DNA from: an uncultured Isoptericola sp.
GTDB taxonomy: Bacteria; Actinomycetota; Actinomycetes; Actinomycetales; Cellulomonadaceae
DNA: 64,000 nt
Direction: 5' to 3'
NCBI GenBank assembly: GCA_947497265.1
Contig: CANMFP010000007.1
Span: forward strand, 62,001-126,000
The notes below the pieces were generated by a model. It did not search any database, was not told the origin of the DNA, and worked only from the letters and a program-made list of their open reading frames with translations. The position numbers and the translations under genes were made by a program. This document shows, one piece after another, positions 1,832 to 22,299 of the stretch; positions within the stretch are counted from its first letter, which is position 1, and each line of letters starts with the position of its first letter.

Positions 1832-1968
1832 AGGACCTCCGTCGACGGTGCGAGCCACCGATTCTGCCTGGCGAGCCGGACCGTTGCACCCATCGATGCT
1901 GTCCGTCGTCGGCCCCCGGAGCGTGTGGCGGACCATGCCGCACGGGCCGCCCACGACGAGGTGAGGGC

Positions 1969-6822: not shown

Positions 6823-7696
6823 GGCGCGCCTCCGGAGCGATCGTGGACAGGCGGAACCACTCGGGGTGGCGCCGCAGCGGTGTGGTCAGCACAGCCCGGC
6901 GAGGTCGGCGTGCTCGGGACGCCCAGCGTCGGTAGACCTCCGGGCGGGAGTACGCCGCCGAGTGGCCGGACCAGCCGAACTTGCGGCGCATGTCCGCGTC
7001 GTCGCGCACCCAGGAGTAGTGCACCACTGCCTCGTCGAGGCCGATCACCTCGTGCACGATCGTGTCGGGGCCGTGGGCCGGGTCGGTATTCCGCGCGCGG
7101 AGGTCGACGCGGTGGTGGATCGCCGCGTCCGCCTGGCGCGCGCACGTCAGTGTGGTTCCGGGGCGGACCGCCAGCGGCCCGGGATAGCCGGCGACAGGCC
7201 GCCAGAACCGGGTCGAGGCCTCCAGGTATCGCCCGCCGCCCGGCGCGTCCCCCACGCGTGCGTAGAGCCACCGGGAGGGATAGTCGAGGGCGGTCGCGCC
7301 GACGTCGTGGGCCTGGCCGATCGCGCCGAAGAAGGTCGCGGGCGCGACCAGGACCTCGTCCGTGTCGAGCTGCAGCACCCAGTCCGCGCCGTCGGAGGCC
7401 TGGTCGAGCGCCGCCTGGCGCTGGTGGGTGTCGTTGTCGAGGGGTTCCTGGTCCGCCCGGTAGTAGTCGCCAGGCACGTACTCGCACTTCCCGGCAACGT
7501 CCAGGCCCTTGATGATCCTGAGGCACTCCTCCACCGGGAGCGGGGTACCGGACCACGAGGTGCTGCTGCGGTCGTAGGACACGACGATGCGGTCCACGCG
7601 GTCGTAGTACGCGCGGACGCTCGCGGCGAGGTAGGCGGGGTCCGCGGCGAGCACGTAGGCGTTCAGGCGGACCGGCGCCGGACGGGCGGGCGGCAC
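6815..7696 (-). CDS. GT2-like glycosyltransferase (GT-A fold)
   Basis: About 293 residues. The N-terminus 'VRLNAYVLAADPAYLAASVRAYYDRVDRIVV', 'WVLQLDTDEVL' (DxD-type metal site) and a late 'VVHYSWVRDDADMRRKFGWSGHS' resemble the GT2/GT92-like proteins often annotated as glycosyltransferase family 2. The GTG at 7696 is chosen because TACGCT ends exactly 6 nt upstream, the leaderless pattern seen repeatedly here; no Shine-Dalgarno sequence exists. The frame stays open far upstream, antisense to mfd, but that extension is low-complexity arginine-rich shadow sequence. It is first in an operon with the next GT2 gene and divergent from mfd. Confidence 0.78.
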   Translation of the reverse strand: MPPARPAPVRLNAYVLAADPAYLAASVRAYYDRVDRIVVSYDRSSTSWSGTPLPVEECLRIIKGLDVAGKCEYVPGDYYRADQEPLDNDTHQRQAALDQASDGADWVLQLDTDEVLVAPATFFGAIGQAHDVGATALDYPSRWLYARVGDAPGGGRYLEASTRFWRPVAGYPGPLAVRPGTTLTCARQADAAIHHRVDLRARNTDPAHGPDTIVHEVIGLDEAVVHYSWVRDDADMRRKFGWSGHSAAYSRPEVYRRWASRARRPRRAVLTTPLRRHPEWFRLSTIAPEARRA

Positions 7697-7741
7697 ACGT
7701 GCAGCGTAGGCGCACCGTGGGGGAACGCAGGCGGGCGCTCG

Positions 7742-7775
7742 CGGGTGAAACCCGGTGATCGGCGAGGGTTCACCC
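7742..7775. repeat. Inverted GGGTGAA/TTCACCC repeat in the GT2-mfd intergenic region
   Basis: CGGGTGAAAC at 7742-7751 faces GGGTTCACCC at 7766-7775, an inverted repeat with 7-8 bp arms. The left half is identical over ten bases to the copy at 3811. It lies between divergent starts at 7696 and 7892 and may be an operator shared with other glycan genes. Confidence 0.4.
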
Positions 7776-7891
7776 CCGGAGCCGTCGCACCCGTATCTGC
7801 CGTGAGTGTCCCGGCGTACCCTGGGACCGTCAGCCCGCACGCCCCGTCCCGGGGTGAGGTGGGCCCGTCGCCGTGCGCCCGAAGGACCTTC

Positions 7892-10800
7892 ATGAACCTC
7901 ACCGGCATCGTTCCTGCTCTGCTCGCCGAACCTGGTGCGGCCGCTGCCCTGGAGGCCGTGCCGCTCGGCGGTGAGGTCGACGTCGTCGGCCCGAAGGGCG
8001 TGCGTGCCCCGCTCGTCGCCGCCGCGGCCGAGAAGCGTCCCCTCGTGGTGGTCACCGCCACCGGGCGCGACGCCGACGAGCTCGCGGCCGCCGTGCGCGC
8101 CTACCTGCCCGACGAGCGGTACGACGACGTCGCGGTCCTGCCGGCGTGGGAGACGCTGCCGCACGAGCGGCTCAGCCCGCGCGCCGACACGGTGGCCAAG
8201 CGGCTCGCGGTGTTCCGGCGGCTGGCGCACCCGGCCGACGAGCCCGGCCAGACCGGTCCGGTCAACGTCCTGATCATGCCGGTGCGCGCGTTGCTGCAGC
8301 CGGTGGTCGACGGCCTCGGCGAGCTCGAGCCGGTGGAGCTGCACACGGGGCAGACGGCGGACCTCACCGACATCGGCGACCGTCTCGTCGCGGCGGCCTA
8401 CACCCGCGTGGACATGGTGGAGCGGCGCGGGGAGTTCGCGGTCCGGGGCGGCATCCTCGACGTCTTCCCGCCCACGGAGGACCACCCGCTGCGCCTCGAG
8501 TTCTGGGGCGACGAGGTCTCGGAGATCCGGTGGTTCTCGGTGGCGGACCAGCGGTCGCTGGAGATCGCCGACCGAGGGCTGTGGGCGCCGCCGTGCCGCG
8601 AGATCCTGCTCACCGACGCGGTGCGTCGGCGGGCGGCGGAGCTGACCGAGCAGCTCCCCGGCGCGATCGACATGCTGGACAGGCTCGCCGCGGGCATCGC
8701 CGTGGAGGGCATGGAGTCCCTGGCGCCGGTGCTGGTGGAGCGGATGGTGCCGGTCCTGGAGCTGGTCAGGTCCGACTCGCTGCTCGTCCTCGACGAGCCG
8801 GAGCGGGTGCGCCGGCGCGCGCACGACCTGGTGGCCACGACGCAGGAGTTCCTCGCGGCGGCCTGGACGGGCGCCGTCGCGGGCGGTGACGCACCGCTCG
8901 ACCTCTCGGCCGCGTCCTTCGCGACCTTCGCCGACACCCGCGAGGTCGCGGCCCGCCGCGGGCTCGGCTGGTGGACGCTCTCGGCCTTCTCGTTGGAGGC
9001 GGCCGGAGCCGAGGCGGACGACGACGGCGTCGCGGCCGCGGTGTCGACCTCGGACGACGACGCGACCACCTTCACGATCGCGGCGCGCGACGTCGAGTCG
9101 TACCGCGGCGACGTCGCGCGTGCCCTGGACGACGTGCAGGGGCTGCAGAAGGCCGGCTGGCGCCTGGTCCTGACCACCGAGGGACCTGGCCCGGCGCAGC
9201 GCATGACCGAGCAGCTCCGCGCCGCGGACACGGCCGCCCGTCTCGTCACCGAGCTGGACGACGTGCCCGAGGGCGGCGTCGTGCACGTGGCGCCCGCACT
9301 GGTGGGCAAGGGGTTCGTGGTCCCGGAGCTGCAGCTCGCGGTGTTCAGCGAGTCGGACCTCACGGGTCGCCAGGGGTCGTCGACCCGGGACATGCGGCGG
9401 ATGCCCTCGCGGCGACGCAACGTCGTCGACCCCCTGCAGCTCACGGCCGGCGACTTCGTGGTGCACGAGCAGCACGGCGTCGGCCGGTTCGTCGAGATGG
9501 TGCAGCGCACCCTCGGCGCGGGCGCGAGCGCCGCGACGCGCGAGTACCTGGTCATCGAGTACGCCTCGTCCAAGCGGGGGCAGCCGGGCGACCGCCTGTT
9601 CGTGCCCACCGACCAGCTCGACCAGGTCACCAAGTACACCGGTGGCGAGTCGCCGAGCCTGTCCAAGATGGGCGGTGCCGACTGGAAGAACACCAAGGCG
9701 CGCGCCCGCAAGCACGTCAAGGAGATCGCGAGCGAGCTCATCCGGCTCTACTCCGCGCGGATGGCCACGCAGGGGCACGCGTTCGGGCCGGACACGCCGT
9801 GGCAGCGCGAGCTGGAGGACGCCTTCGCCTACGTCGAGACCCCCGACCAGCTCGTCACCATCGACGAGGTCAAGGCCGACATGGAGAAGTCGGTGCCGAT
9901 GGACCGCCTGGTGTGCGGCGACGTCGGCTACGGCAAGACGGAGATCGCCCTGCGGGCGGCGTTCAAGGCCGTGCAGGACGGCAAGCAGGTCGCCATCCTG
10001 GTGCCCACCACGCTGCTGGTCCAGCAGCACTTCGACACGTTCTCCGAGCGGTACGCCGGGTTCCCGGTGAACGTGCGGGCGCTGTCGCGCTTCCAGAGCG
10101 CCAAGGAGTCGGCGGAGACGCTCGAAGGCCTCAAGGACGGCACCGTCGACGTGGTCATCGGTACCCACCGCATCATCACGGGGTCGGTGCACTTCAAGGA
10201 CCTCGGCCTGGTGATCATCGACGAGGAGCAGCGGTTCGGCGTCGAGCACAAGGAGACGCTCAAGCAGCTGCGCACCAACGTGGACGTCCTGGCCATGTCG
10301 GCGACGCCGATCCCGCGCACGCTGGAGATGGCGGTGACCGGCATCCGCGAGATGTCCACGCTGGCGACGCCGCCCGAGGAGCGCCACCCCGTCCTGACCT
10401 ACGTCGGCGGGTACGAGGAGCGGCAGATCTCCGCGGCGGTCCGGCGCGAGCTCCTGCGCGAGGGACAGGTCTTCTACGTGCACAACAAGGTCGAGTCCAT
10501 CCAGCGGGCCGCGACGCGGCTGGCCGAGCTCGTACCGGAGGCCCGGATCGGCGTCGCGCACGGCAAGATGAGCGAGCAGCAGCTCGACCAGGTGATCCGC
10601 GCCTTCTGGGAGAAGGAGCTGGACGTGCTGGTCTGCACCACGATCATCGAGACCGGTATGGACATCTCGAACGCGAACACCCTCATCCTCGAGCGTTCCG
10701 ACACTCTCGGGCTGTCGCAGCTCCACCAGCTCCGCGGTCGCGTCGGCCGTGGCCGGGAGCGGGCGTACGCCTACTTCCTCTACCCGCCGGAGCGTCCCCT

Positions 10801-11512
10801 CACCGAGACGGCGCACGACCGGTTGGCCACGATGGCGGCCAACACCGACCTCGGCGCGGGCATGCAGATCGCCATGAAGGACCTCGAGATCCGCGGCGCG
10901 GGCAACCTGCTCGGCGGCGAGCAGTCCGGGCACATCGCCGGCGTCGGGTTCGACCTGTACGTGCGCATGGTGGGGGAGGCCGTGGCGGCGTTCCGCGGCG
11001 ACGCCGAGGCCGAGGCGCCGGAGATGACGATCGAGCTGCCGGTGGACGCCCACCTGCCCGAGACGTACATCGCCACCGAGCGCCTGCGCCTCGAGGCGTA
11101 CAAGAAGATCGCCGCCGCCCAGGACGCGGCCGCGCTCACCGAGGTGCGCGACGAGCTCGTCGACCGGTACGGAGCCCTGCCGGAACCCACGGAGGCCCTG
11201 TTCGAGGTCGCCGAGTTCCGCAACCACGCCCGCCGCGCCGGCCTGGCGGACGTGACCGCTCAGGGCAAGCACATCCGGTTCGCGCCGGTCGACCTGCCCG
11301 AGTCGGCGCAGATGCGGCTCAAGCGGCTCTACCCCGGCACGATCCTCAAGCCCGGCATCCGGGCCGTCCTGGTGCCGTTCCCGACGACGGCGCGGATCGG
11401 CGGCAAGCCGTTGCGCGGCACCGCTCTGCTCACCTGGGCGCGGCAGCTCATCGATGCTGTGATCCTCGGCGAGGTGGCGGCCGCGGCGTCGGTCGGGACC
11501 GCGGCGCGGTAG
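7892..11512 (+). CDS. mfd: Transcription-repair coupling factor Mfd
   Basis: A 1206-residue protein of normal Mfd length. It removes RNA polymerase stalled at DNA lesions and recruits UvrA. The N-terminal third is the UvrB-like module, and the CarD-like RNAP-interaction domain follows near residue 520 ('LTAGDFVVHEQHGVGRF'). The SF2 translocase motor has Walker A 'GDVGYGKTE' (~675), 'IIDEEQRFG' (~774), 'SATPIPRTL' and 'QLRGRVGRG' (~946). The C-terminal TRCF domain is complete. ATG 7892 has AAGGA 6-7 nt upstream. A TACCCT box near 7817 is a plausible -10. The gene appears monocistronic. Confidence 0.97.
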   Translation: MNLTGIVPALLAEPGAAAALEAVPLGGEVDVVGPKGVRAPLVAAAAEKRPLVVVTATGRDADELAAAVRAYLPDERYDDVAVLPAWETLPHERLSPRADTVAKRLAVFRRLAHPADEPGQTGPVNVLIMPVRALLQPVVDGLGELEPVELHTGQTADLTDIGDRLVAAAYTRVDMVERRGEFAVRGGILDVFPPTEDHPLRLEFWGDEVSEIRWFSVADQRSLEIADRGLWAPPCREILLTDAVRRRAAELTEQLPGAIDMLDRLAAGIAVEGMESLAPVLVERMVPVLELVRSDSLLVLDEPERVRRRAHDLVATTQEFLAAAWTGAVAGGDAPLDLSAASFATFADTREVAARRGLGWWTLSAFSLEAAGAEADDDGVAAAVSTSDDDATTFTIAARDVESYRGDVARALDDVQGLQKAGWRLVLTTEGPGPAQRMTEQLRAADTAARLVTELDDVPEGGVVHVAPALVGKGFVVPELQLAVFSESDLTGRQGSSTRDMRRMPSRRRNVVDPLQLTAGDFVVHEQHGVGRFVEMVQRTLGAGASAATREYLVIEYASSKRGQPGDRLFVPTDQLDQVTKYTGGESPSLSKMGGADWKNTKARARKHVKEIASELIRLYSARMATQGHAFGPDTPWQRELEDAFAYVETPDQLVTIDEVKADMEKSVPMDRLVCGDVGYGKTEIALRAAFKAVQDGKQVAILVPTTLLVQQHFDTFSERYAGFPVNVRALSRFQSAKESAETLEGLKDGTVDVVIGTHRIITGSVHFKDLGLVIIDEEQRFGVEHKETLKQLRTNVDVLAMSATPIPRTLEMAVTGIREMSTLATPPEERHPVLTYVGGYEERQISAAVRRELLREGQVFYVHNKVESIQRAATRLAELVPEARIGVAHGKMSEQQLDQVIRAFWEKELDVLVCTTIIETGMDISNANTLILERSDTLGLSQLHQLRGRVGRGRERAYAYFLYPPERPLTETAHDRLATMAANTDLGAGMQIAMKDLEIRGAGNLLGGEQSGHIAGVGFDLYVRMVGEAVAAFRGDAEAEAPEMTIELPVDAHLPETYIATERLRLEAYKKIAAAQDAAALTEVRDELVDRYGALPEPTEALFEVAEFRNHARRAGLADVTAQGKHIRFAPVDLPESAQMRLKRLYPGTILKPGIRAVLVPFPTTARIGGKPLRGTALLTWARQLIDAVILGEVAAAASVGTAAR

Positions 11513-11748: not shown

Positions 11749-12924
11749 GTGGAACTCGTGGAACGGCCCGCAGCGCGGGCGACCGGCTCGGCTCTGCGCC
11801 CACTGGCGCAGCTGCTGCTCGACGCCGCGTTCGACCGGCCGGGCGTCTTCTCCGACGAGCTGGGACGGGTGACGGGCGAAGAGCTGTGGGAAGCAGGCCT
11901 TCTGCACCGGGTCACACCGGCCGTCGCGCGTGCCGTGCGGGGCTGGTCCGAGGTCCCCGAGGCATGGCGGGCACCGCTGGAGGTGGGGCGCAACCGGCAG
12001 ATGCTCCGCCACCTGCGGGCGCTGGAGGACCTCAAGGTCCTCGGCGCGGCCCTGGACCGGGCTGGCATCGCCTGGGTCGTCGTCAAGGGCGCGACCCTCG
12101 CCTCCGTCGTCTGGCCGCACGCCGACATGCGCGAGTACTACGACCTGGACCTGCTCGTGCAGCCCGCGGCGTTCCGGGACGCCGTCGAGATCGTCGAGGC
12201 CGAGGGCGGCCGGCTCCTCGACCGCAACTGGCCGGCGCTGCGGGCGTCGCGACGCGGGGAGCTGGCGATGGTGGGTCGCCACGGCACGCACGTGGACCTG
12301 CACTGGCACCTCGCGGTCGCGCCGTCCGTGCGCCGGGCCTTCGCCCTCGACGTCGACGCGATGCTGGCGCGACGGCGCCACCGTGAGCTCTCGGCCACCT
12401 CGGTGCCGATGCTCGACCCCGAGGACCAGGCGCTGCACGTCGCGGTCCATGCCGCCCAGGCCGGTGCGAACCGGCTGATGTGGCTCGCCGACGCCTACTA
12501 CGCCGCGCAGCAGGTCGACTGGGACGTGCTGTGCGACCGCTCCCGTGCCGCGCGTGCGGAGGTCCCGGTGGCCCTCGTCCTGGACCGGGCGTACCGCGTC
12601 GCCGGGGAGCCAGGAGTGCCGCACTCCGGTTTCGAGCGTGCCGCCGCGGGATCCTGGGGCCGGCTGGCCCGCGCACGCGACGCCCGGCACCCCTTCCCCG
12701 GGCTCCCGGGAGACCCCCGGCTCGGCGGCGCCGTGTACAGCGCCGCGCGAGCGTCGGTCGTCGCCAGCGCAGGCCACCTCGTCGCGCTGCACGCCCGGGC
12801 ACGCCGGGACGGCTGGCGTCATCGGACCGGGCGCGACGTCGCGTGGCCGCTCCAGCAGGACGTGCCCCACGCCGGTGCCCGGGACGCGTACTTCGCCGCC
12901 GCCGCGAGCGGTGAGCGACGGTGA
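11749..12924 (+). CDS. Lasso-cluster nucleotidyltransferase family protein (PF14907-like)
   Basis: A 391-residue protein. The nucleotidyltransferase signature is 'VVVKGATLA' (~111-119) followed by 'MREYYDLDLLV' (~128-138), the K-G...R-x3-D-x-D pattern with two metal-binding aspartates. Family members recur in lasso clusters that also encode an HPr-kinase-like kinase; in the Bacillus pseudomycoidin system such a protein is linked to hexose addition on the phosphorylated C-terminal serine. Here it overlaps the ABC exporter as GTGA and shares the cluster with such a kinase. The GTG at 11749 has a poor ribosome site, so the start is uncertain. A CGGGTGAAAT motif lies upstream at 11691. Confidence 0.82.
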   Translation: MELVERPAARATGSALRPLAQLLLDAAFDRPGVFSDELGRVTGEELWEAGLLHRVTPAVARAVRGWSEVPEAWRAPLEVGRNRQMLRHLRALEDLKVLGAALDRAGIAWVVVKGATLASVVWPHADMREYYDLDLLVQPAAFRDAVEIVEAEGGRLLDRNWPALRASRRGELAMVGRHGTHVDLHWHLAVAPSVRRAFALDVDAMLARRRHRELSATSVPMLDPEDQALHVAVHAAQAGANRLMWLADAYYAAQQVDWDVLCDRSRAARAEVPVALVLDRAYRVAGEPGVPHSGFERAAAGSWGRLARARDARHPFPGLPGDPRLGGAVYSAARASVVASAGHLVALHARARRDGWRHRTGRDVAWPLQQDVPHAGARDAYFAAAASGERR

Positions 12925-14807
12925 GCGCCGTCCGGACCGCCACGGGCGACGGCGAAGCTGGGCGCGGTGGTTCGGTCACCGCCAAGGGACGACGGCTGGT
13001 CGACCTCGTGCGCCGTTCGACCAGGATCGTGTGGCGGTGCAGCCCTGGCCTCTTCATGACGCTCGTGGCACTGCAGGTCACCGCCGCCGTGGCGCTCGCC
13101 CTGCAGGTGCTGGTCGTCGCGCAGGTACTCGAGCGGATCCTGGACCTGCCCGACGCCGGCATCACGCCGGGCCTCGTGTGGTCGGTGGTGGCGCTCGCGA
13201 GTCTCATGGCGCTCGGCTCCGTCGTCACCGTGGCGCAGGGCAGCGTGCGGCGGCTGGTCGGCGAGCTGGTGGCCCGCTCCATGGCCGAGAAGGTGCAGGA
13301 CGTGGCGACCACCGTCCCGCTGCGCAACTTCGAGTCCCCGGAGTACTTCGACAACCTGCAGCGCGTGCGGCAGAGCGCCATGTCCCGGCCGTTCCAGGTC
13401 ACGCAAGGGCTGTTCACCGTGATCGGGGCGCTGGCCGCCTGCCTCGGTGTCGGGGCGGCGCTCGTCTCGCTGTACCCGTGGCTGCTCCCGCTGCTCGCGG
13501 TCGGCGCCGTCCCGGTGCTGCTGACCAGCCGCCGCGAGAGCGCGCTGGAGTTCCGGTTCTCCGTCGACCAGACGACCAACCAGCGCGAGCGCACCTACGT
13601 CAACTACGTGCAGACCAGCCGGGACGAGGCGAAGGAGATCCGGGCCTTCCAGGTGGCGCCCTGGTTGCGCGAACGGTTCCGCGCCCTGTACGACACGTAC
13701 CTCGCGGCGTTGCGCCGGCACCTCGGCCGTCGGCTGCGCCTGTCGGTGCTCGGTCAGACGCTGTCCGGTCTCGTGCTCGTGGCCACGCTGCTGCTCCTGG
13801 TGCTGCTGATCTCTCGTGGCGAGGTCAGCGTCGCCGACGCAGGTGCCGCCATCGTGGGGATCCGCGCCCTGCAGGGGCAGATCCAGGGGCTGGTGGGCGG
13901 CATACAGCAGATCCACGAGTCAGGGCTCTACCTCGACGACCTCGAGGCCTTCTTCCGGCACCACGAGGACGAGGCCTCCACGGTTCCCCGCGCCGTCGAC
14001 GGGATGCCACCGTTCGCGGGGGTCCGGATCGACGGCGCGACCTTCCGGTACCCCGGCGCGTCGGTCGAGGCGCTGACCGACGTGTCGATCGAGGTGGGAC
14101 CGGGGGAGGTGGTCGCCGTCGTCGGGGAGAACGGGTCGGGCAAGACCACAGCGGCGAAGGTGCTGGCCGGGCTGTACGAGCCGGACGACGGCACGGTGCT
14201 CTGGGGTGAGACGCCGTACAGCAAGCTTGCCGAGGACGACCTGCGCAGCCGGGTCGCGGTGATCTTCCAGGACTTCGTCCGCTACGCGTTCTCCGCGGCG
14301 GAGAACATCGCGCTCGACGGTGCCGGGCCCCAGGCCCGCCGTGACCCGCACGGCGCCGAGCAGGTCCGGCAGGCCGCACGAGCCGCCGGGGTGGACGGCG
14401 CCCTGGCCCGCCTGCCGCACGGATATGCCACGCGCCTGTCACGGATGTTCGACGACAGCTCGGACCTGTCCGGCGGGCAGTGGCAGCGGGTCGCCATCGC
14501 CCGCGCGTTCTACCGTGACGCCGACCTGGTCATCCTCGACGAACCGTCGGCGGCGCTGGACCCGCGGGCCGAGCACGCCCTGTTCACCTCGCTGCGGGAG
14601 ACCCTGCGCGGCCGGTCAGCCCTCTTCATCTCGCACCGGTTCGCCACTGTGCGGGGAGCGGACCGGATCTACGTGATGGACTCCGGGCGGGTCGTCGAGT
14701 CCGGTACGCACGCCGAGCTGATGGCCGAGCGCGGACTGTATGCCGAGCTGTTCGACCTTCAGGCCGGGGCGTACTTCCCGGACGGCTGGTCCAGCGCCGC
14801 CCCCTGA
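12921..14807 (+). CDS. ABC transporter (fused membrane and ATPase domains), likely lasso-peptide exporter (D protein)
   Basis: A 628-residue half-transporter. An N-terminal transmembrane domain (about residues 45-345) precedes an ATPase with Walker A 'GENGSGKTT' (~402), Q-loop 'IFQDF', signature 'LSGGQ' (~516), Walker B 'VILDEPSAALD' (~536) and 'SHR' switch histidine. Lasso D proteins export the mature peptide and give immunity. Start GTG 12921 overlaps the nucleotidyltransferase stop by 4 bp, so expression is coupled. The 3' end overlaps the convergent kinase gene by 49 bp. The ~35-residue N-terminal extension is hydrophilic and cytosolic. Confidence 0.88.
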   Translation: MSAVRTATGDGEAGRGGSVTAKGRRLVDLVRRSTRIVWRCSPGLFMTLVALQVTAAVALALQVLVVAQVLERILDLPDAGITPGLVWSVVALASLMALGSVVTVAQGSVRRLVGELVARSMAEKVQDVATTVPLRNFESPEYFDNLQRVRQSAMSRPFQVTQGLFTVIGALAACLGVGAALVSLYPWLLPLLAVGAVPVLLTSRRESALEFRFSVDQTTNQRERTYVNYVQTSRDEAKEIRAFQVAPWLRERFRALYDTYLAALRRHLGRRLRLSVLGQTLSGLVLVATLLLLVLLISRGEVSVADAGAAIVGIRALQGQIQGLVGGIQQIHESGLYLDDLEAFFRHHEDEASTVPRAVDGMPPFAGVRIDGATFRYPGASVEALTDVSIEVGPGEVVAVVGENGSGKTTAAKVLAGLYEPDDGTVLWGETPYSKLAEDDLRSRVAVIFQDFVRYAFSAAENIALDGAGPQARRDPHGAEQVRQAARAAGVDGALARLPHGYATRLSRMFDDSSDLSGGQWQRVAIARAFYRDADLVILDEPSAALDPRAEHALFTSLRETLRGRSALFISHRFATVRGADRIYVMDSGRVVESGTHAELMAERGLYAELFDLQAGAYFPDGWSSAAP

Positions 14808-15733
14808 TCGCCCAGCGCCGCGACTAGCTCGGCTCCCAGGCGCTCGCGGAACGGCGGCCCCCACGGCACCTGGGCGGTGAAGACGGGGACGTTCGCGGCG
14901 AGGGTCGACACCCCGGCGAACTGCGCTGCGGTGACCTGGGGGTCCTGCCAGCCGAGCAGGCGTGGGAACTGCATGAGGGCGAACGCCGCGTCGGCTCCGC
15001 GGACCTGGTCGACCTGGAGCTCGTCAGCGTCCCGCCGGGGGAGCGGGACCACGAGCGCGCGGAGCGGGACGCCGTCGTCGGCCGGACGTCCGGGTGCCAG
15101 CAGGTCGCGTCCGTCGGCGCTGCGGCCCTGGTGCGGGGAGTCCGCACCGAATCTCTCGGTCAGGGTGTCGGCACCCTTGCGCAGGCGCAGCTCGGTGGCG
15201 CCGAGCCGGGCGACCGCGTTGCTCCCGGGGTCGTCGACCCGCAAGACGTCGTCGGTGACGAGCGCTCCACCCTCGGCACACAGCAGCGCCGCCATCGTCG
15301 ACTTGCCCATGCCCGACCGCCCGACGAACCCGACCGCCGCGCCACCGAGCTGGACGGCGCTGGCGTGCAGGACGACGTGCCCGCGCAGGTACAGCTGGAA
15401 TGCCATGAGCGCACCGGAGGCGAGCACCCGTGCCACGCCGGTGTCGGCGCCCTCGACCACGTGCCACGAGACGTCCTCGAGGTTCGGCCCGAGCACGAAG
15501 TCGCAGGTGCCGTGGAACCTGAGCACGTAGCCGTCTGCGGTCCGCGTCGCCGTGTACCAGGGGCGCTCGGGGCTGGCGTAGTGCAGGAGGACCTGACCCG
15601 GGGGATCGTCGAACGTGTGGCTACGGTCCGCCCCGCGCCGCAGCCGGACGCGGCCGTCGGCGGCGACGGTCCCGGTGCGGGAGGGCATCGGGACGTCGCT
15701 GTCGATGGACAGTCCGTAGAGCGTGGTGGTCAT
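14759..15733 (-). CDS. HPr-kinase-like lasso-peptide kinase (K protein)
   Basis: A 324-residue protein with a P-loop 'GFVGRSGMGKSTMAALL' (~135-151), 'HASAVQLGGAAV' just before it and 'ALVTDDVLRVDD' after it, the layout of HPr kinase-fold proteins of RiPP clusters. The paeninodin-type enzymes of this family phosphorylate the C-terminal serine of the lasso precursor, and the precursor here ends in serine. It is last in the A-C-B2-K order; its ATG overlaps the B2 stop as ATGA. It lacks the HPr-binding features of true HprK. Substrate assignment rests on context. Confidence 0.83.
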   Translation of the reverse strand: MTTTLYGLSIDSDVPMPSRTGTVAADGRVRLRRGADRSHTFDDPPGQVLLHYASPERPWYTATRTADGYVLRFHGTCDFVLGPNLEDVSWHVVEGADTGVARVLASGALMAFQLYLRGHVVLHASAVQLGGAAVGFVGRSGMGKSTMAALLCAEGGALVTDDVLRVDDPGSNAVARLGATELRLRKGADTLTERFGADSPHQGRSADGRDLLAPGRPADDGVPLRALVVPLPRRDADELQVDQVRGADAAFALMQFPRLLGWQDPQVTAAQFAGVSTLAANVPVFTAQVPWGPPFRERLGAELVAALGDQGAALDQPSGKYAPA

Positions 15734-16173
15734 GCAGGGCTCCCGATCCGTGTCTGGTCGAACTCCAGGTACATCCACGTCGCGCCCTCGGGGTCGAGGT
15801 CGGCACCGTCGATGCGGAGCCAGGCGTGCGCCCGCAGCTCGGTACCGTCGCGCCGCACACCCAGCACGATCTGCGGGTCGCGGGAACGCAGCGTGCGGCC
15901 CAGCAGCAGGGCCGTGCGCAGGCACGTGCCGTTGACCCAGCGCAGGCGCAGGACGCGCCGGTCGATGCGCAGCGCGCGCAGCTCGCGGGACGTGAGCTGC
16001 GTGGTGTCGAAGGCTGGGCGGGCCGTCGAGCCCGGAGCGCCGCCGAGGCGCAGGCCGAGCAGAGCGGCGGTCCGCCGCAGGCCGAGCGTCCGCAGACCAG
16101 CTTCGGCCACCAGGTAGACCGATGCCGACCGGACTGCTCGCAGCAGGCCGGTGACGCGCCGTCGCGCGTTCAC
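15730..16173 (-). CDS. Lasso peptide B2 protein (transglutaminase-fold leader peptidase)
   Basis: A 147-residue protein of typical split-B2 length. The predicted cysteine-protease triad is C84 in 'VNGTCLRTALLLGR', H116 in 'LRAHAWLRIDG' and an aspartate around 121-126. With the B1 recognition protein it should remove the leader, cutting two residues after the conserved leader threonine. Start GTG 16173 overlaps the cyclase stop (GTGA) and the stop overlaps the kinase start (ATGA), so C, B2 and K are translationally coupled. The basic N-terminal ~35 residues are not part of the catalytic core. Confidence 0.87.
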   Translation of the reverse strand: MNARRRVTGLLRAVRSASVYLVAEAGLRTLGLRRTAALLGLRLGGAPGSTARPAFDTTQLTSRELRALRIDRRVLRLRWVNGTCLRTALLLGRTLRSRDPQIVLGVRRDGTELRAHAWLRIDGADLDPEGATWMYLEFDQTRIGSPA

Positions 16174-17321
16174 GCGGCGCCCTCGGCGGGGCTGCGGACC
16201 TGGCTGGCGAGCCAGGCGGACTGGAGCAGCAGACCGGTGGGGCCGGGTGGACGCTCGCTCGACCATGCCTCCTGCAGGGCCTCGGCGTCGACGAGGTCGT
16301 GCGGCACACCCCTGCCGTCCCAGTTCTGGGCGAACTCCCGGGTGGCCTCGCCGAGGTAGGCGAGGGTGAAGGTCGCCTTGGAGGTGCGCGCGAGGACCGT
16401 GTCCGGGAGGACGTCGCGGAAGACCGCTCGCATGCCGTCGGTGCGCGAGGAGAAACCTGTCGGGTGCCGGTGGGCGACGGCAGCGAGGAAGGTCGGGTCG
16501 AGCAGCGGGTGGGTGACCACCGCGTCGTGCTCGGCGGCCAGCGCGGAGTAGGTCCGGAAGAACTCGGTGACCGATCGCCGGCGCGCGACCCACCGCAGCG
16601 AGCCACCGAAGGCCAGCGGCTCGGCGAGGTCGTCGGCGCACACGCGCTCGGCGAGCTCGCGCCGCGCGTCGGCCCGGAGCCATGGCGTCGTGAACGGCAT
16701 GGCGTGCTGCCGGGAGCGGAGCAGGCCGGGAGCGAGAGACGTCACCGCTGCTCGGCGAGGGCTGCCGGGGGCGAAGGGATGCAGTGCAGCTCGGCGCAGC
16801 GGCCGGATGCGGCGGTCGCCGAAGACCTCGTCGCCTCCCTCCCCGGTGAGGACGGCGCCGCCGGCGCACCGCTCGAGCAGCGGCCAGCGTGCGTGCATGG
16901 TGGCCGGCCAGAGCAGGCCGTGGCGGCGCAGGCTGTCCTGGGCTGCCGGCCCGAGCAGGTCGTTCTCGGTGGTGACGGGCATGCGCCACCAGGCGCGGAG
17001 CCCCAGGTGGCTGACGACGGCGTGCTGCCAGTCGGACTCGTCGGCCTCGGCGATCCCCGGATAGACGAACGTCACCGGGATCGGGTCTGGTGCGCCGGCC
17101 AGGGCGGTGGCTCGGCACGCCGCGGCCAGGACGGCCGAGGAGTCTCGGCCTCCCGAGAACGTGACGAAGATCTGGCGCGTGCCGGCGTGGTGCGCGATGG
17201 CCGCGACGAGGGTGTCGAGGGGAGAGGCCGACGTCCGTCGGCGTGGTGGGGGCTCGACCAGGCCGGGGAGCCACGACCAGGCGATCTCGCGCGGCGTGGG
17301 TCGATGGACGTCGAGAGTCAT
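16170..17321 (-). CDS. Lasso cyclase (C protein), asparagine-synthetase-like, without the N-terminal glutaminase-like domain
   Basis: A 383-residue protein with the ATP-pyrophosphatase signature 'SGGRDSSAV' (56-64) and 'TGEGGDEVFG' (~159-168), the AMP-forming core that activates a side-chain carboxylate and closes the macrolactam ring. Known lasso cyclases such as McjC are about 500-600 residues and have an N-terminal Ntn/glutaminase-like domain; only ~55 residues precede the P-loop here. ATG 17321 has GGAG 6 nt upstream, and only 70 bp separate it from the precursor gene, so no missing domain lies upstream. Later motifs such as 'ARTSKATFTLAYLG' are present, so it looks functional. Confidence 0.87.
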   Translation of the reverse strand: MTLDVHRPTPREIAWSWLPGLVEPPPRRRTSASPLDTLVAAIAHHAGTRQIFVTFSGGRDSSAVLAAACRATALAGAPDPIPVTFVYPGIAEADESDWQHAVVSHLGLRAWWRMPVTTENDLLGPAAQDSLRRHGLLWPATMHARWPLLERCAGGAVLTGEGGDEVFGDRRIRPLRRAALHPFAPGSPRRAAVTSLAPGLLRSRQHAMPFTTPWLRADARRELAERVCADDLAEPLAFGGSLRWVARRRSVTEFFRTYSALAAEHDAVVTHPLLDPTFLAAVAHRHPTGFSSRTDGMRAVFRDVLPDTVLARTSKATFTLAYLGEATREFAQNWDGRGVPHDLVDAEALQEAWSSERPPGPTGLLLQSAWLASQVRSPAEGAA

Positions 17322-17391
17322 GTCGGTCTCCGCGCCGGTCGGCGGCACCCGCGACGGTGCCGCGGGGCCGCCGACGTGCTGCGGGAGAGGG

Positions 17392-17523
17392 TCAGGAGAC
17401 CCCGCCACCGCCGCCGTCCTTGGGGCCGCGGAACAGGTCGCCGTCGTAGTTCAGGGCGAGCTGGCCCTCGAGCGTGACGTCGGCGACCGTGCCGACCTCG
17501 CGGATGCTGGGTGCCTCGTACAT
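17392..17523 (-). CDS. Lasso peptide precursor (A protein), 43 residues
   Basis: Starts 'MYEAPSIREVGTVADVT', an exact match to the lasso leader pattern Y-x2-P-x-(L/I)-x3-G-x5-T. With T17 at leader position -2 the core is residues 19-43, which would start with E19 and use D27 as ninth residue for the ring. If cleavage were one residue later, G20 would be residue 1 and D27 residue 8. Both fit a 8-9-membered macrolactam. The tail holds F31-R32 as possible plugs, a run of five glycines (37-41) and a C-terminal serine, a possible kinase target. AGGAGGT lies 7 nt before ATG 17523. This gene is first in the A-C-B2-K operon. Confidence 0.88.
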   Translation of the reverse strand: MYEAPSIREVGTVADVTLEGQLALNYDGDLFRGPKDGGGGGVS

Positions 17524-17597
17524 GGGAGTACCTCCTGGTTGTCGGTGCCGGACCGTTTCAGTATTCCCAGCACGATCTGGCGATGGCAGGCGGGGCG

Positions 17598-17681
17598 AGG
17601 GTGAAAAGGGCTGGTGAGCGGGTGAATGGCGGGCGCCTGCGGATGAAATCGCTCGATCGGCCGGTGAGGCACTTCCAGCGG
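17598..17681. repeat. Four imperfect 21-bp tandem repeats between precursor and B1 genes
   Basis: GTGAA, GTGAA, ATGAA and GTGAG begin at 17601, 17622, 17643 and 17664, each exactly 21 bp apart, and each follows a G/C triplet (AGG, CGG, CGG, CCG). Twenty-one bp is two helical turns, so all copies face the same side of DNA. The array lies in the 200-bp divergent spacer between the precursor (start 17523) and B1 (start 17724). It is a good candidate for a regulator-binding array; the regulator is not evident in the cluster. Confidence 0.45.
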
Positions 17682-17723
17682 TGGTTTGATGCCTGCGGAC
17701 GACCGCGACGATCGGAGAACACC

Positions 17724-17978
17724 ATGCGGCTGCGGGCAGACGGGTTGACCTGGCAGGAGGTCGACGGCGAGCTGGTGCTCCTCGACCTGAACACCTCGAA
17801 GTACCTGACGACCAACGCGGCCGGCACCCTGCTCGCCCAGACGCTGGCCGACGGCGCGACCGAGGACCAGCTCGTCGGTGCGCTCGTGGACGCCTACGGG
17901 ATCGACGAGTCCGTCGCGCGGGCCGACACCGCGAGCTTCCTCGCGGACCTGCGCGACCAGGACCTGCTGCGCGACTGA
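17724..17978 (+). CDS. PqqD-family lasso B1 protein (RiPP recognition element)
   Basis: An 84-residue PqqD-like protein with 'GLTWQEVDGELVLLDLNTSKYLTTNAAGTLL', the winged-helix RRE that binds the leader peptide (typically the Y-P-L/I-G residues) and presents it to B2. The remaining residues form the usual helical 'ATEDQLVGALVDAYGIDE' part. ATG 17724 has GGAG 7 nt upstream. It is transcribed divergently from the A-C-B2-K operon, whereas B1 most often sits in the same operon. It is followed by a long inverted repeat that could end transcription before the xylanase gene. Confidence 0.88.
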   Translation: MRLRADGLTWQEVDGELVLLDLNTSKYLTTNAAGTLLAQTLADGATEDQLVGALVDAYGIDESVARADTASFLADLRDQDLLRD

Positions 17979-18132: not shown

Positions 18133-18161
18133 TTGACCTTAAATCGGCGCCCCCGTAGCGT
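18133..18161 (+). promoter_or_regulatory. Possible promoter of the xylanase gene
   Basis: TTGACC (18133-18138) and TAGCGT (18156-18161) are separated by 17 bp, about 85 bp before the start codon. The -35 box is near consensus; the -10 is weaker but of the TANNNT type seen throughout this window. Confidence 0.4.
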
Positions 18162-18246
18162 GCCGGATGACGGGGCGCGGCGCGCCCCGCCCGGGGCCGC
18201 GAGCATCGAGGCCGGTGCCCCGGTCGCACATCGCAAGGGAGCGACG

Positions 18247-21200
18247 ATGAGGCTAAGGATCACCAGGACGGTCGCGGGGCTCACCGCGGCCGCGCTGGCG
18301 GCGAGCGGTGCAGCAGGTGCCGCCGTCATGGGAGCGTCAGCAGCGGTGGCGGACGACGCCGTCGTGCTAGAAAACGATTTCGACACGGCGTCGGACCCCT
18401 GGGGCCCACGCGGCCCGGTCGAGCTCGAAATCACCGACGACGCGCGCACCGGCGCCGGCGCCCTCGCGGTGACCGGCCGCACGGGGGAGTGGAACGGCCC
18501 GGCCACCGACGTCAGCGGACTGTTCGCCGAGGACGGCGTGTACCAGGTCGAGGCCTGGGTCAAGCTGCCCGCCGAGGCGCCGGACGCCACCGACCTCCAC
18601 TTCACCGTCCAGGAGACCTCCGCCGACGGCGACGCGTACACCTGGGTCGGTGGAGCGGTCGAGGCCACGGCTGACGAGTGGGTCCAGGTGGGCGGCACGT
18701 ACACGATGCCCGCCGGCCTCACCGACGCCCAGCTCTACCTGGAGGCCGCCCCCGTCGGCGACGTCCACCCCGACTTCCTCGTGGACGACCTGGTGATCAC
18801 CGGCCAGGAGGTCGACAGCAGCCTGCCCGACGGGTTCGTCCCGGGCGGCGCGGTCAGCCCCACCGCCACCCCGGTGTCCGCGGCGCAGCCCGGCACCGCG
18901 GGAGGCCCGGTCGCCGCGCTGACCTTCGACGACGGCCCGAACCCGGGCACCACGCCCGCGCTGCTCGACTTCCTCGCCGAGCACGACCTGCCCGCCACGT
19001 TCTGCGTCATCGGGCAGAACATCGAGGCCGACGGCGGCGCGGAGATCCTGCGCCGGATCGTGGACGAGGGGCACACCCTGTGCAACCACTCCACCGGTTA
19101 CGCCGACATGGGCTCGATGACACCGGAGCAGGCCCAGGCGGACATGATCGCCAACCTCGACATCATCCGTGACGCTCTCGGCGACCCGCAGGCCAAGGTG
19201 CCGTTCTGGCGCGCGCCGAACGGCTCGTGGGGCGCCACCTCCGCCGTCGCCGTGAACCTCGGCATGCAGCCGCTCGCGGTGACGAACACGATCGCCGACT
19301 GGGAGACGCAGGACGAGGCGACGCTGACCGAGAACCTGCGCGCCGCGATGACCGACGGCGAGCTCGTCCTGGTGCATGACGGCGGCGGCGACCGCTCCGG
19401 GTCACTCGCCGCGGTCGAGACCGTGGTCACCGAGCGCCTGGCCGACGGCTGGGAGTTCACGCAGGTGCAGGGCACGCCCCCGGCGTCCGGCGCCGTGCTG
19501 AGCACCGACTTCGAGGACGGCCTGGACGGCTGGGGCCCGCGCACCGGGGACGAGACCGACCCCACCGTGGAGATCACGACGGCGGACGCCGTCTCGGGCG
19601 AGGCCGCCGCGCTGGTCACCGACCGTGACGGGCAGGGCGACGGCATCGGCCGGGACGTCTCGGAGGCGCTGACCTCCGGGGTGCGCTACGAGTTCAGCGC
19701 ACAGGTGCGGTTCGCCGAGGATCAGGAGGCGGACGCCGTCTGGCTGTCGCTGGCCACCACCGCCGACGGCTCGACGTCGTACGCGACGCTCGCGCAGTGG
19801 TCCGGTGTGACGGCGGACGGCTGGACCGAGGTCACCGGCTCCTTCCAGGCCCCGGCGGGCGAGGAGCAGGTCCTCTACCTCGAGACGGACTACAACGGCA
19901 CCAACACGAGCGACATCCTGGTGGACGACGTCGTGGTCGCCGTGCCCGAGCCGGCGGTGGTCCAGGACCTCACGCCGATCAAGGACACCGTGCCGTTCGC
20001 GACGGGCGTGGCGATCGACTCGCGAGAGACCAGCGGGTCGGCCGCAGAGCTGCTCCTGCGGCACTTCAACCAGATCACGGCCGAGAACCACATGAAGCCG
20101 GAGGCCTGGTACGACGACGAAGGCACGTTCCGTCCGCACCCGGAGGCGATCGCGCTGATGGACTTCGCGGCCGAGAACGACCTCGCGATGTACGGCCACG
20201 TGCTGACGTGGCACTCCCAGACGCCGGAATGGTTCTTCACCGACGACGCGGGGGAGCCGCTCACGGACTCCGCCGCCGACCAGCAGGTTCTGCGTGACCG
20301 GCTCCGGGAGCACATCTTCGCCGTCGTCGAGTGGCTGGCCACCTACGGCGAGTTCGGTGCCGACAACCCGGTGAACGCCTTCGACGTGGTCAACGAGGTC
20401 ATCTCTGACGGCGCCACGGACGACGGCCTGCGCCGCAGCGAGTGGTACCGGATCCTCGGCGAGGAGTTCATCGACCTGTCGTTCGAGTACGCCGACGAGG
20501 CCTTCAACGACCTCCACGCCGCCGACGGCGCGGACCGCCCGGTCAAGCTCCTCATCAACGACTACAACACCGAGCAGGGTGGCAAGCAGGACCGTTACGT
20601 CGCCCTCGTCGAGCGCATGCTCGAGCGCGGTGTGCCGCTCGACGGCGTGGGGCACCAGTTCCACGTCTCGCTCGCCACGCCGGTCTCGGCCCTGGAGACC
20701 GCGCTCGAGCGGTTCGAGAGCATGCCGGTCACCCAGGCCGTCACCGAGCTCGACGTCACCATCGGCACCCCCGAGACCGAGGCGAACCTCATCGAGCAGG
20801 GCTACTGGTTCCGGGACGCGTTCCGGATGTTCCGCGACCACGCCGACTCGCTGCACGCCGCCACGGTCTGGGGCCTGACCGACGGCCGTTCCTGGCGTGC
20901 CGACAACGGGGCGCCGCTGGTCTTCGACGATGCCTACCAGGCCAAGCCGGCCTACTTCGGGATCGTCGACGGCGACCTGCCCGTCCAGCAGCGGTCGGCC
21001 AACGTCTTCGCCGGCACCGTGGACCTCGACGGCTCCGCGGCCTCCTCGCCCCGGTGGGACCGCCTGCCGCTGCACGAGATCACCGCGGCCGGCGAGGACG
21101 TCGCCGGGTTCCAGCTGCGCTGGGCCGCCGACCACCTCACCGCCTACGTGTCCGTCACCGACGGTGCGGCCGAGGCGAGCGACGCCGTCACGTTCGACCT

Positions 21201-22299
21201 CGACGGCACGACCGCCGTCGTCGGCCGCGACGGCACAGTGACGGGGGATGCGACCGCCGAGGTCGTCGAGACCGACGCCGGGTACGACGTCGTGGCGCAC
21301 CTGCCGCTCGGCGGCGTCGCCGAGGGAGACACGCTCGCCCTCGACGTCCAGGTGGACGACGGCGGCACGTCCGCCGGGTGGAACACCCCCGGCGCGTACG
21401 GCACGCTCTCGCTGCTCGAGGAGCTGAGCCACGTCGAGGTGGTCGAGGCGCCGGAGGCACCCACGGTGGACGGGGAGGTCGACGAGGTGTGGTCCGCGGC
21501 GAACGCCGTGACCACGGCGAACCGCGTCGAGGGGTCGGACGGTGCCGTGGGGACCTTCCGGACCCTGTGGACGGACGACACGCTGTACGTGCTGGCAGAG
21601 GTGCCGGACCTGGCCGTGGACGTCAGCGGCTCCGACCCCTGGATCCAGGACTCGGTGGAGATCTTCCTCGACGCCGGCAACGCCAAGAGCGGTGCCTACC
21701 GGGCTCAGGACACGCAGATCCGCATCAGCGCGGAGAACGTGGTGTCCTTCGGCACGGGTGACGCGGCAGAGCAGGAGGCCCGGCTGACCTCGGCGGCCAC
21801 GCTGACCGAGGACGGCTACCTCGTCGAAGCCGCGATCGACCTGCTCGACCAGGGCGGTGCGGGGACGTTCCAGGGCCTGGACCTGCAGGTCAACGACGCC
21901 ACCGACGGCGCCCGGACCTCGGTGACCACCTGGGCCGACCCGACCGGCACCGGCTACCAGTACACGCACCGCTGGGGCGTGGCCGAGCTGGTGGCGGCGC
22001 CCGTGCCGCCCGCGCCGGACTGGGAGTCCGGGCAGGTCTACACGGCCGACGACGAGGTGACTCACGACGGCGCCCTGTACCGCGCGTCGTGGTGGACCAC
22101 CGAGGAGCCGGGCAGCTCGCCCTGGGGCTCGTGGCAGGAGATCGCCACGGCGTCGGACGGGACGGCGCAGTGGACCGACTCACGCATCTTCACCGCGGGC
22201 GATGTCGTCGTGCACGACGGCGACCGCTACGAGGCGAAGTGGTGGACCCGCAACCAGGCCCCGGGCGATCGGCACGGGCCCTGGAAGCCCTTGGGCTGA
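18247..22299 (+). CDS. Secreted multidomain xylanase (GH10) with CE4 deacetylase domain and several carbohydrate-binding modules
   Basis: 1350 residues with a signal peptide (cleavage likely after 'SAAVA', residue 35). In order: CBM4/9-like module (~38-195); NodB/CE4 deacetylase (~222-410) with 'TFDDGPNPG', 'RAPNGSWG' and 'LVLVHDGGGD'; a second CBM4/9-like module (~416-568); GH10 xylanase (~572-908) with acid/base E717 in 'DVVNEV' and nucleophile E834 in 'VTELDVT'; a CBM9-like/DOMON region (~915-1058); another CBM9-like module (~1070-1240); two CBM5/12-like modules (~1258-1300, ~1308-1350). It should cut xylan and remove acetyl groups outside the cell. The deacetylase HxxxH site reads 'HSTGY'. 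ATG 18247 follows AGGGAG; a longer frame lacks a signal peptide. Confidence 0.93.
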   Translation: MRLRITRTVAGLTAAALAASGAAGAAVMGASAAVADDAVVLENDFDTASDPWGPRGPVELEITDDARTGAGALAVTGRTGEWNGPATDVSGLFAEDGVYQVEAWVKLPAEAPDATDLHFTVQETSADGDAYTWVGGAVEATADEWVQVGGTYTMPAGLTDAQLYLEAAPVGDVHPDFLVDDLVITGQEVDSSLPDGFVPGGAVSPTATPVSAAQPGTAGGPVAALTFDDGPNPGTTPALLDFLAEHDLPATFCVIGQNIEADGGAEILRRIVDEGHTLCNHSTGYADMGSMTPEQAQADMIANLDIIRDALGDPQAKVPFWRAPNGSWGATSAVAVNLGMQPLAVTNTIADWETQDEATLTENLRAAMTDGELVLVHDGGGDRSGSLAAVETVVTERLADGWEFTQVQGTPPASGAVLSTDFEDGLDGWGPRTGDETDPTVEITTADAVSGEAAALVTDRDGQGDGIGRDVSEALTSGVRYEFSAQVRFAEDQEADAVWLSLATTADGSTSYATLAQWSGVTADGWTEVTGSFQAPAGEEQVLYLETDYNGTNTSDILVDDVVVAVPEPAVVQDLTPIKDTVPFATGVAIDSRETSGSAAELLLRHFNQITAENHMKPEAWYDDEGTFRPHPEAIALMDFAAENDLAMYGHVLTWHSQTPEWFFTDDAGEPLTDSAADQQVLRDRLREHIFAVVEWLATYGEFGADNPVNAFDVVNEVISDGATDDGLRRSEWYRILGEEFIDLSFEYADEAFNDLHAADGADRPVKLLINDYNTEQGGKQDRYVALVERMLERGVPLDGVGHQFHVSLATPVSALETALERFESMPVTQAVTELDVTIGTPETEANLIEQGYWFRDAFRMFRDHADSLHAATVWGLTDGRSWRADNGAPLVFDDAYQAKPAYFGIVDGDLPVQQRSANVFAGTVDLDGSAASSPRWDRLPLHEITAAGEDVAGFQLRWAADHLTAYVSVTDGAAEASDAVTFDLDGTTAVVGRDGTVTGDATAEVVETDAGYDVVAHLPLGGVAEGDTLALDVQVDDGGTSAGWNTPGAYGTLSLLEELSHVEVVEAPEAPTVDGEVDEVWSAANAVTTANRVEGSDGAVGTFRTLWTDDTLYVLAEVPDLAVDVSGSDPWIQDSVEIFLDAGNAKSGAYRAQDTQIRISAENVVSFGTGDAAEQEARLTSAATLTEDGYLVEAAIDLLDQGGAGTFQGLDLQVNDATDGARTSVTTWADPTGTGYQYTHRWGVAELVAAPVPPAPDWESGQVYTADDEVTHDGALYRASWWTTEEPGSSPWGSWQEIATASDGTAQWTDSRIFTAGDVVVHDGDRYEAKWWTRNQAPGDRHGPWKPLG
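18368..18382. promoter_or_regulatory. Candidate operator copy 2 inside the xylanase coding start
   Basis: TAGAAAACGATTTCG differs from the upstream copy (18100-18114) at one base. It falls in codons ~41-46 and forces unusual codons for this gene (CTA, GAA, GAT), which suggests selection on the DNA word itself. Confidence 0.35.

Follow-up and report, generated by a model that had tools for sequence, protein, structure and literature searches.

A predicted gene cluster for a phosphorylated lasso peptide with a short cyclase in an Isoptericola-type actinobacterium

A lasso-peptide gene cluster was analysed in an Isoptericola-type genome (3.77 Mb, 41 contigs), within 64,000 nucleotides of contig 7 (positions 62001-126000), hereafter the window. 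It comprises seven genes, N, ABC, K, B2, C, A and B1. The initial annotation had named a precursor, B1, B2, a cyclase, a kinase, a nucleotidyltransferase and an exporter, and all seven were found again in place by family matches, the kinase scoring below the PF07475 cut-off with its motif intact. That annotation had overlooked how short the cyclase is, the Glu that opens the core and the divergent orientation of B1. The features are as follows (window coordinates, strand):

11749..12924, +, N, PF14907 nucleotidyltransferase, 391 amino acids (aa), GTG start (Pfam, 36-sequence alignment, AlphaFold2, fold search)
12921..14807, +, ATP-binding cassette (ABC) exporter, permease and ATPase fused (ABC_tran match)
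14759..15733, -, K, HPrK-like kinase, 324 aa, with H123, K144, D161 and D162 (PF07475 match below cut-off, motif alignment)
15730..16173, -, B2, transglutaminase-like leader peptidase, 147 aa (Pfam and NCBIfam matches)
16170..17321, -, C, short AsnB-like macrolactam synthetase, 383 aa, without N-terminal glutaminase-like domain (Pfam, tree, predicted structure)
17392..17523, -, A, precursor, 43 aa plus stop (leader motif, NCBIfam model)
17470..17523, -, leader of A, 18 aa, with Y(-17), P(-14), T(-2) and L(-1) (register as in the extract of PMC10368454)
17395..17469, -, core of A, 25 aa, predicted Glu1-Asp9 ring, C-terminal Ser25 (comparison with relatives)
17724..17978, +, B1, PqqD-like recognition element (RRE) for ribosomally synthesized and post-translationally modified peptides (RiPPs), 84 aa, divergent from A (PqqD match; TbiB1, 5v1u, nearest solved chain)

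The genes, first described as two converging units, run in three directions: N-ABC (+), A-C-B2-K (-), and B1 alone (+), divergent from A. Four-base overlaps join N to ABC, C to B2 and B2 to K, and the K frame (ending at 14759) and the ABC gene (ending at 14807) overlap at their 3' ends. A Shine-Dalgarno-like AGGAGGT lies directly 5' of the A start; a promoter and terminator scan gave no promoter-like site and one terminator-like site, versus 0.8 in shuffled sequences.

Precursor A reads, leader and core, MYEAPSIREVGTVADVTL / EGQLALNYDGDLFRGPKDGGGGGVS. Its leader is an exact Y-x2-P-x-I-x3-G-x5-T (Y2, P5, I7, G11, T17), as first noted, and matches the NCBIfam model lasso_leader_L3 (26.2 bits, cut-off 19). 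B1 matches PqqD (54.2 bits, cut-off 23.4) and, by sequence, TbiB1 (5v1u, E 5.7e-7), the paeninodin-type chain 9x90 (1.4e-4) and TfuB1 (1.5e-3). B2 matches Transglut_core3 (44.4 bits, cut-off 26) and NF033537 (49.1, cut-off 33), and the exporter matches ABC_tran (105 bits, cut-off 25). The marks of a lasso cluster, a YxxP leader with T(-2), an RRE, a B2 peptidase and an AsnB-like cyclase, are thus all present.

Relatives were collected by three routes, and fetched stretches were scanned with iterated hidden Markov models (HMMs) built for this analysis. Route (a), a cyclase search across the whole family (221 genomes), found the cyclase in 18 genomes including the source, five of the 17 others at 53-79% identity. 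The kinase was present in 16 of these 17 and N in 15; the misses are G148 (4.2 kb contig; K and N) and G005 (8.9 kb fetched; N only). As the cyclase occurs in 17 other genomes with the same gene set recurring around it, the cluster is more than a chance assembly. Route (b) was a kinase search of genome contigs (35 loci) and of 297 genomes from the order, 15 of which matched. Route (c) applied the NCBIfam B2 model to 396 genomes across the phylum, 52 of which matched; a kinase-like gene lay near B2 in 38 of the 52 loci, some of these matches covering the P-loop part only, and kinase and N together in 23, so the combination is frequent in Actinomycetota. The initial annotation had named, as an outcome that would speak against it, that the kinase and nucleotidyltransferase clearly belong to non-lasso families; the kinase in 16 of 17 genomes fished by cyclase alone points the other way. 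Their pairing is a known one (paeninodin, pseudomycoidin, Bsf) and not rare, and no actinobacterial lasso cluster with both was found in the literature searched, of which coverage was partial. A lasso cluster flagged by antiSMASH in Isoptericola sp. AK164 is mentioned, with no detail in the extract of that paper (PMC10425560).

From these loci 57 precursors were picked by hand, spurious frames being excluded, which gave 53 distinct cores. According to the extract of PMC10368454, YxxPxL spans positions -17 to -12 of lasso leaders and T occupies -2; the Y(-17) and T(-2) rulers agree on the window precursor and thus place Glu first in its core. The same spacing fits 53 of 53 distinct cores, although the choice of motif was itself biased towards T in this place. 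In the window and in five related loci (L021, L022, L028, L037 and L047), T-L-E is followed by G, A, G, Q, Q and Q, respectively, and Asp9 is present in 6/6; these make five distinct cores, those of L028 and L037 being identical. The cyclases of the six genomes form one clade (99/98 support), the next branch outward, L031, has Gln1 (100/98), and Glu or Gln at position 1 requires 2 changes on the cyclase tree, versus 5-8 in 300 shuffles. A comparison of the first 13 core codons of the window and L021 gives five amino-acid and no silent differences with Glu1 and Asp9 kept, that is, the core changes around these two fixed residues. One further Glu1 core, L120, belongs to a separate group (described below) where position 1 is G, E or L. 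From the Glu that follows T(-2)-L(-1) and the invariant Asp9, whose position counted from Glu1 falls within the usual 7-9, a nine-residue Glu1-Asp9 ring is predicted for the window product.

B2 might instead cut one residue later, after T-L-E, leaving Thr at -3 and an ordinary eight-residue Gly1-Asp8 ring; in its favour, lasso rings usually start with Gly, G-x6-D follows Glu in the window core, and L022 and L021 have Gly and Ala there. However, the residue after Glu is Gln in L028, L037 and L047, so that Gly1 cannot fit all six genomes; Glu is invariant whereas its neighbour is not, the rest of the branch uses an acid at position 9, and the leader spacing described above argues against a shifted Thr. 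We consider this register unlikely from the relatives. The predicted Glu1 differs from the first residues known so far (Gly, Cys, Ser, Ala; Asn; Trp, Leu). Lasso peptides starting with Trp1 or Leu1 are known. The extract of PMC12670498 lists Gly, Cys, Ser and Ala and describes Asn1 of metanodin as a first (2025). Metanodin, from a soil metagenome, also had its unusual first residue assigned through T(-2); its Asn1 is neutral whereas Glu1 is acidic, and no kinase is mentioned in the extract (PMC12670498).

C matches Asn_synthase (55.7 bits, cut-off 21), with SGGxDSS, GEGGDE and Lys315 intact. It failed the curated lasso cyclase model NF033535 (10.4 bits versus a cut-off of 525). As controls, the short cyclases of L120 and L112 reached at most 31.5 bits on NF033535/NF033561, and of three full-length cyclases L063 passed (338.8, cut-off 300) while L056 (267.6) and L060 (242.4) fell short. 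A cyclase tree (72 rows after removal of nine duplicate loci, each covering 70% or more of the model; midpoint root) splits into 50 sequences, including that of the window, and 22 (support 100/99). Of the 50, 47 have an open frame of under 150 aa ahead of the synthetase domain, and an HMM of the N-terminal domain did not match the three exceptions (L021, L022, L124); among the 22, at least 150 aa precede the synthetase domain in 19, the other three being frames cut by the stretch edge. The same HMM, built from full-length cyclases, found no separate N-terminal-domain gene in the window's stretch; its matches in the short-cyclase loci L023, L043, L046, L116 and L119 were rejected as other AsnB-like or unrelated frames. 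Judged from its sequence, C is a single-domain cyclase within a supported clade of 50 such enzymes, where it groups with Isoptericola cyclases. The monomer was predicted alone with a predicted local distance difference test score (pLDDT) of 93.6, and its top Foldseek matches were beta-lactam synthetase and human asparagine synthetase (best template modelling score 0.41-0.47 by query, root-mean-square deviation 7.7-9.1); by sequence, the PDB gave no match for C, N or B2. Arg173 of C, present in 7/7 sequences of the Glu1/Gln1 branch versus 1/39 elsewhere, is a candidate for meeting Glu1 and may reflect plain ancestry.

The low score of this short C on the curated model is one reason to ask whether the product is a lasso at all, and not a linear or simply cyclic phosphorylated peptide, C performing some other ligation. 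The Linear Polyphosphorylated Peptides (LPPs) of Bacillota share with the window an RRE, an HPrK-like kinase, a nucleoside triphosphate (NTP) transferase and an MsbA-like exporter (PMC13381572), and K, B1 and B2 occur without a cyclase in 26 of the 52 Actinomycetota loci of route (c). LPP clusters, however, lack a cyclase and B2, use a signal-peptidase-like enzyme and are phosphorylated on Ser3 (PMC13381572), whereas the window has a cyclase with intact motifs, a conserved Asp9 and B2 as leader peptidase, and Gln at position 3, where LPP and Bsf kinases have their target. A non-lasso product is thus quite unlikely.

K is 79% identical to the I. halotolerans kinase; the PDB sequence search returned weak P-loop matches only. 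Among 58 aligned kinases (E no worse than 1e-60, model coverage of 60% or more, nine duplicate loci removed), H123, K144 and D162 are present in 58/58 and D161 in 55/58, the other three having Glu. HPrK-like kinases of such clusters phosphorylate the C-terminal Ser of the precursor (extracts of PMC9266682 and PMC8498205), and Ser25 is the sole Ser/Thr of the window core. The two hallmarks of paeninodin-type phosphorylated lasso peptides, His-Lys-Asp-Asp and a C-terminal Ser, are therefore both present. Of the 53 distinct cores, 45 end in Ser, five in Ser-Arg and three otherwise (L080b, L099, L125). A C-terminal Ser was found in 44/52 distinct cores with a kinase at the locus (plus the five Ser-Arg) versus 0/9 plausible precursors from 14 kinase-lacking survey loci (Fisher 1.4e-6, kinship uncorrected). 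The Ser-Arg cores (L112, L115, L118, L126, L127) have an acid at 10, and the kinase target there would be the penultimate Ser.

N matches PF14907 (115.8 bits, cut-off 31.2) and has the catalytic residues expected of a pseudomycoidin-type enzyme: K113-G114, R128, D132-x-D134 and D183-x-H185 are invariant in 36/36 aligned sequences (A2). PsmN of pseudomycoidin is presumably itself a PF14907 member. The AlphaFold2 model of N (pLDDT 93.0) is nearest to MenT1 (E 1.9e-4), LnuA (3.6e-3) and ANT(2'')-Ia (1.1e-2), with a weak match (E 0.12) to FKRP, a transferase of CDP-activated ribitol phosphate. In keeping with these folds, N could place a nucleoside monophosphate on the serine phosphate, or act as a phospho-sugar transferase, instead of adding a hexose, a possibility that we rate somewhat short of even. 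On the other side, a PsmN knock-out connects this family with the attachment of hexose to the phosphate, the kinase acting first (extracts of PMC9266682 and PMC8498205).

Known systems share parts of this gene set. The first core residue of paeninodin is Ala1 and that predicted for the window Glu1. Paeninodin (Paenibacillus dendritiformis) has the same split B1/B2, cyclase, exporter, His-Lys-Asp-Asp kinase and C-terminal Ser target (extracts of PMC9266682 and PMC8498205); it belongs to Bacillota, paeninodin RREs favour WxxP (PMC13381572) whereas the window leader has YxxP, and the window cyclase differs in its 383 aa without N-terminal domain. With its YxxP leader and a B1 nearest TbiB1, the window cluster appears to lie outside the narrow paeninodin family (Bacillota RRE clade, WxxP leader). 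Pseudomycoidin (Bacillus pseudomycoides) likewise has kinase and nucleotidyltransferase genes beside the lasso genes, and carries a phosphate, then one or two hexoses, on its C-terminal Ser (same extracts); phylum, core and cyclase architecture differ, and the window product is a prediction from its genes. The Bsf cluster of Bradymonas sediminis has the same gene set (A, B1, B2, C, D, K, N), with Ser3 as kinase target and Ile(-2) in the leader, whereas the window has Gln3 and Thr(-2) (extract of PMC10368454). The window system likely works like paeninodin and pseudomycoidin. PMC13381572 describes the role in Bacilli as unknown.

From the gene content, catalytic residues, precursor register and conservation observed, we infer the reactions, their order and the threading. 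B1 would hold the YxxPxI leader, K would phosphorylate Ser25 on the linear precursor, and B2 would cut after T(-2)-L(-1). C would then adenylate Asp9 and join it to the alpha-amine of Glu1, so that the nine-residue ring traps the tail; N may extend the serine phosphate with a sugar or nucleotide unit, and the ABC protein would export the product. We propose, with a probability of about 0.7, that the cluster is complete and makes a phosphorylated lasso peptide belonging to an actinobacterial branch, with a Glu1-Asp9 ring, phospho-Ser25 and perhaps a sugar. The initial annotation had suggested a phospho- and glyco-modified lasso peptide: a phosphate and a possible sugar of paeninodin/pseudomycoidin type are supported by homology and context (K residues, sole Ser25, C-terminal Ser of kinase-bearing relatives), whereas the sharing of regulation or sugar supply with flanking glycosyltransferase genes is not, as ten flanking frames tested included a single glycosyltransferase (GT4, 1822-3159), which lies some 8.6 kb away on the other side of mfd.

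Several points weigh against this proposal. K scores 24.4 bits on PF07475, below the curated cut-off of 33.3, and the fold matches of C are loose. The five distinct Glu1 cores are few, the Glu1 (GAG) and Asp9 (GAC) codons are identical in the six genomes and so provide no synonymous-change evidence of selection, and the window core, taken alone, also accommodates the later cut giving Gly1-Asp8. No Glu1 lasso peptide was found in the literature searched, a partial coverage that is no proof of absence. Most compared clusters (L021-L055) came from route (b), so that kinase presence is built in. Finally, the pseudomycoidin hexose was observed with E. coli as host, and reviewers are undecided, in the extracts cited, whether N is the sugar transferase.

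If the proposal is true, a cyclase of about 380 residues suffices for the lasso fold without the N-terminal domain of the full-length cyclases compared, which would make it a simpler enzyme to study and engineer, and kinase/nucleotidyltransferase modification reaches a large actinobacterial group.

Ring size may vary across the short-cyclase clade. The stated rule is a ring of 7-9 residues (extract of PMC9266682), and no 10- or 13-residue lasso ring was found in the literature searched (partial coverage). An acid stands at core position 9 in 26/26 cyclase loci of the branch enclosing the window (92/98). In a 10-row clade (97/92), 10/10 cores have an acid at 10; L112, L115 and L118 have none at 7-9, and the other seven have one at 7 or 8, where an ordinary ring is possible. 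In a 3-row clade (100/99; L027 first, L120, L121), the first non-terminal acid is at 13, with two Cys; the L122 core resembles this 13-group, its short cyclase being cut and outside the 3-row count. Outliers are L124 (10), L099 (13), L049 (11) and L125 (8 and 11). The acid position requires 6 changes on the cyclase tree versus 11-17 (mean 15.8) in 300 shuffles, and therefore follows the tree. Tentatively, and with less than even confidence, we suggest that the short-cyclase clade has relaxed two rules, allowing an acidic first residue (Glu1-Asp9) and, elsewhere, rings of 10 or 13, that the branch sets both, and that phosphate would precede threading where a kinase is present. Glu1 and acids at 10 or 13 would then widen the core-prediction rules; as these assume a usual first residue and an acid at 7-9, present tools may mis-predict or miss such cores. 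The family includes sister enzymes whose predicted rings differ, among them two in L027, where two cyclases and two precursors lie side by side, and so allows a direct test of what controls ring size and first residue.

The cores of L027 (12194-15222), L120, L121 and L122 contain CK(Y/L)GxG(A/S)DN, each with its own short cyclase. In Smaragdicoccus, the L049 core (12690-12932, -), APKPKLGSKQDASNQRLS, has its first acid at 11.

The 26 cyclase-less survey loci (e.g. L064, L065, L066, L068, L092, L104) have B1, B2 and kinase-like genes without a recognisable cyclase, in stretches of full 17 kb for 14 and shortened by contig ends for the others; 17 also have N. They are possibly actinobacterial counterparts of LPP clusters with B2 as peptidase. 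Ten loci encode, by B1, B2 and an HPrK-like gene and with no lasso cyclase found, a small precursor-like protein YEKPxM...INRFFFxxC...CY... (L074:5600-5752(-), L077:11196-11348(+), L075, L076, L081, L082, L084, L085, L089, L096). N is present in 9/10 and a SPASM-like frame in 8/10; the neighbouring gene in L077 encodes a radical SAM/SPASM protein (74.5 and 39.8 bits). These look like an undescribed radical-SAM RiPP system borrowing lasso B1/B2 and the kinase.

The cluster is flanked on one side by mfd (TRCF domains, frame 6680-11512) and on the other, adjoining B1, by a large secreted-type polysaccharide-degrading enzyme (18133-22299) with polysaccharide deacetylase, GH10, CBM4_9, CBM9 and CBM5/12 domains. 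In the relative L120, a WbsX-type glycosyltransferase lies between cyclase and kinase (one of ten neighbour frames tested in L024, L034 and L120). The mfd gene is the direct neighbour of N in the window, L021 and L022; in L120 (L120:3070-9379) and L121 it sits within the cluster, between the cyclase gene and that of the nucleotidyltransferase.

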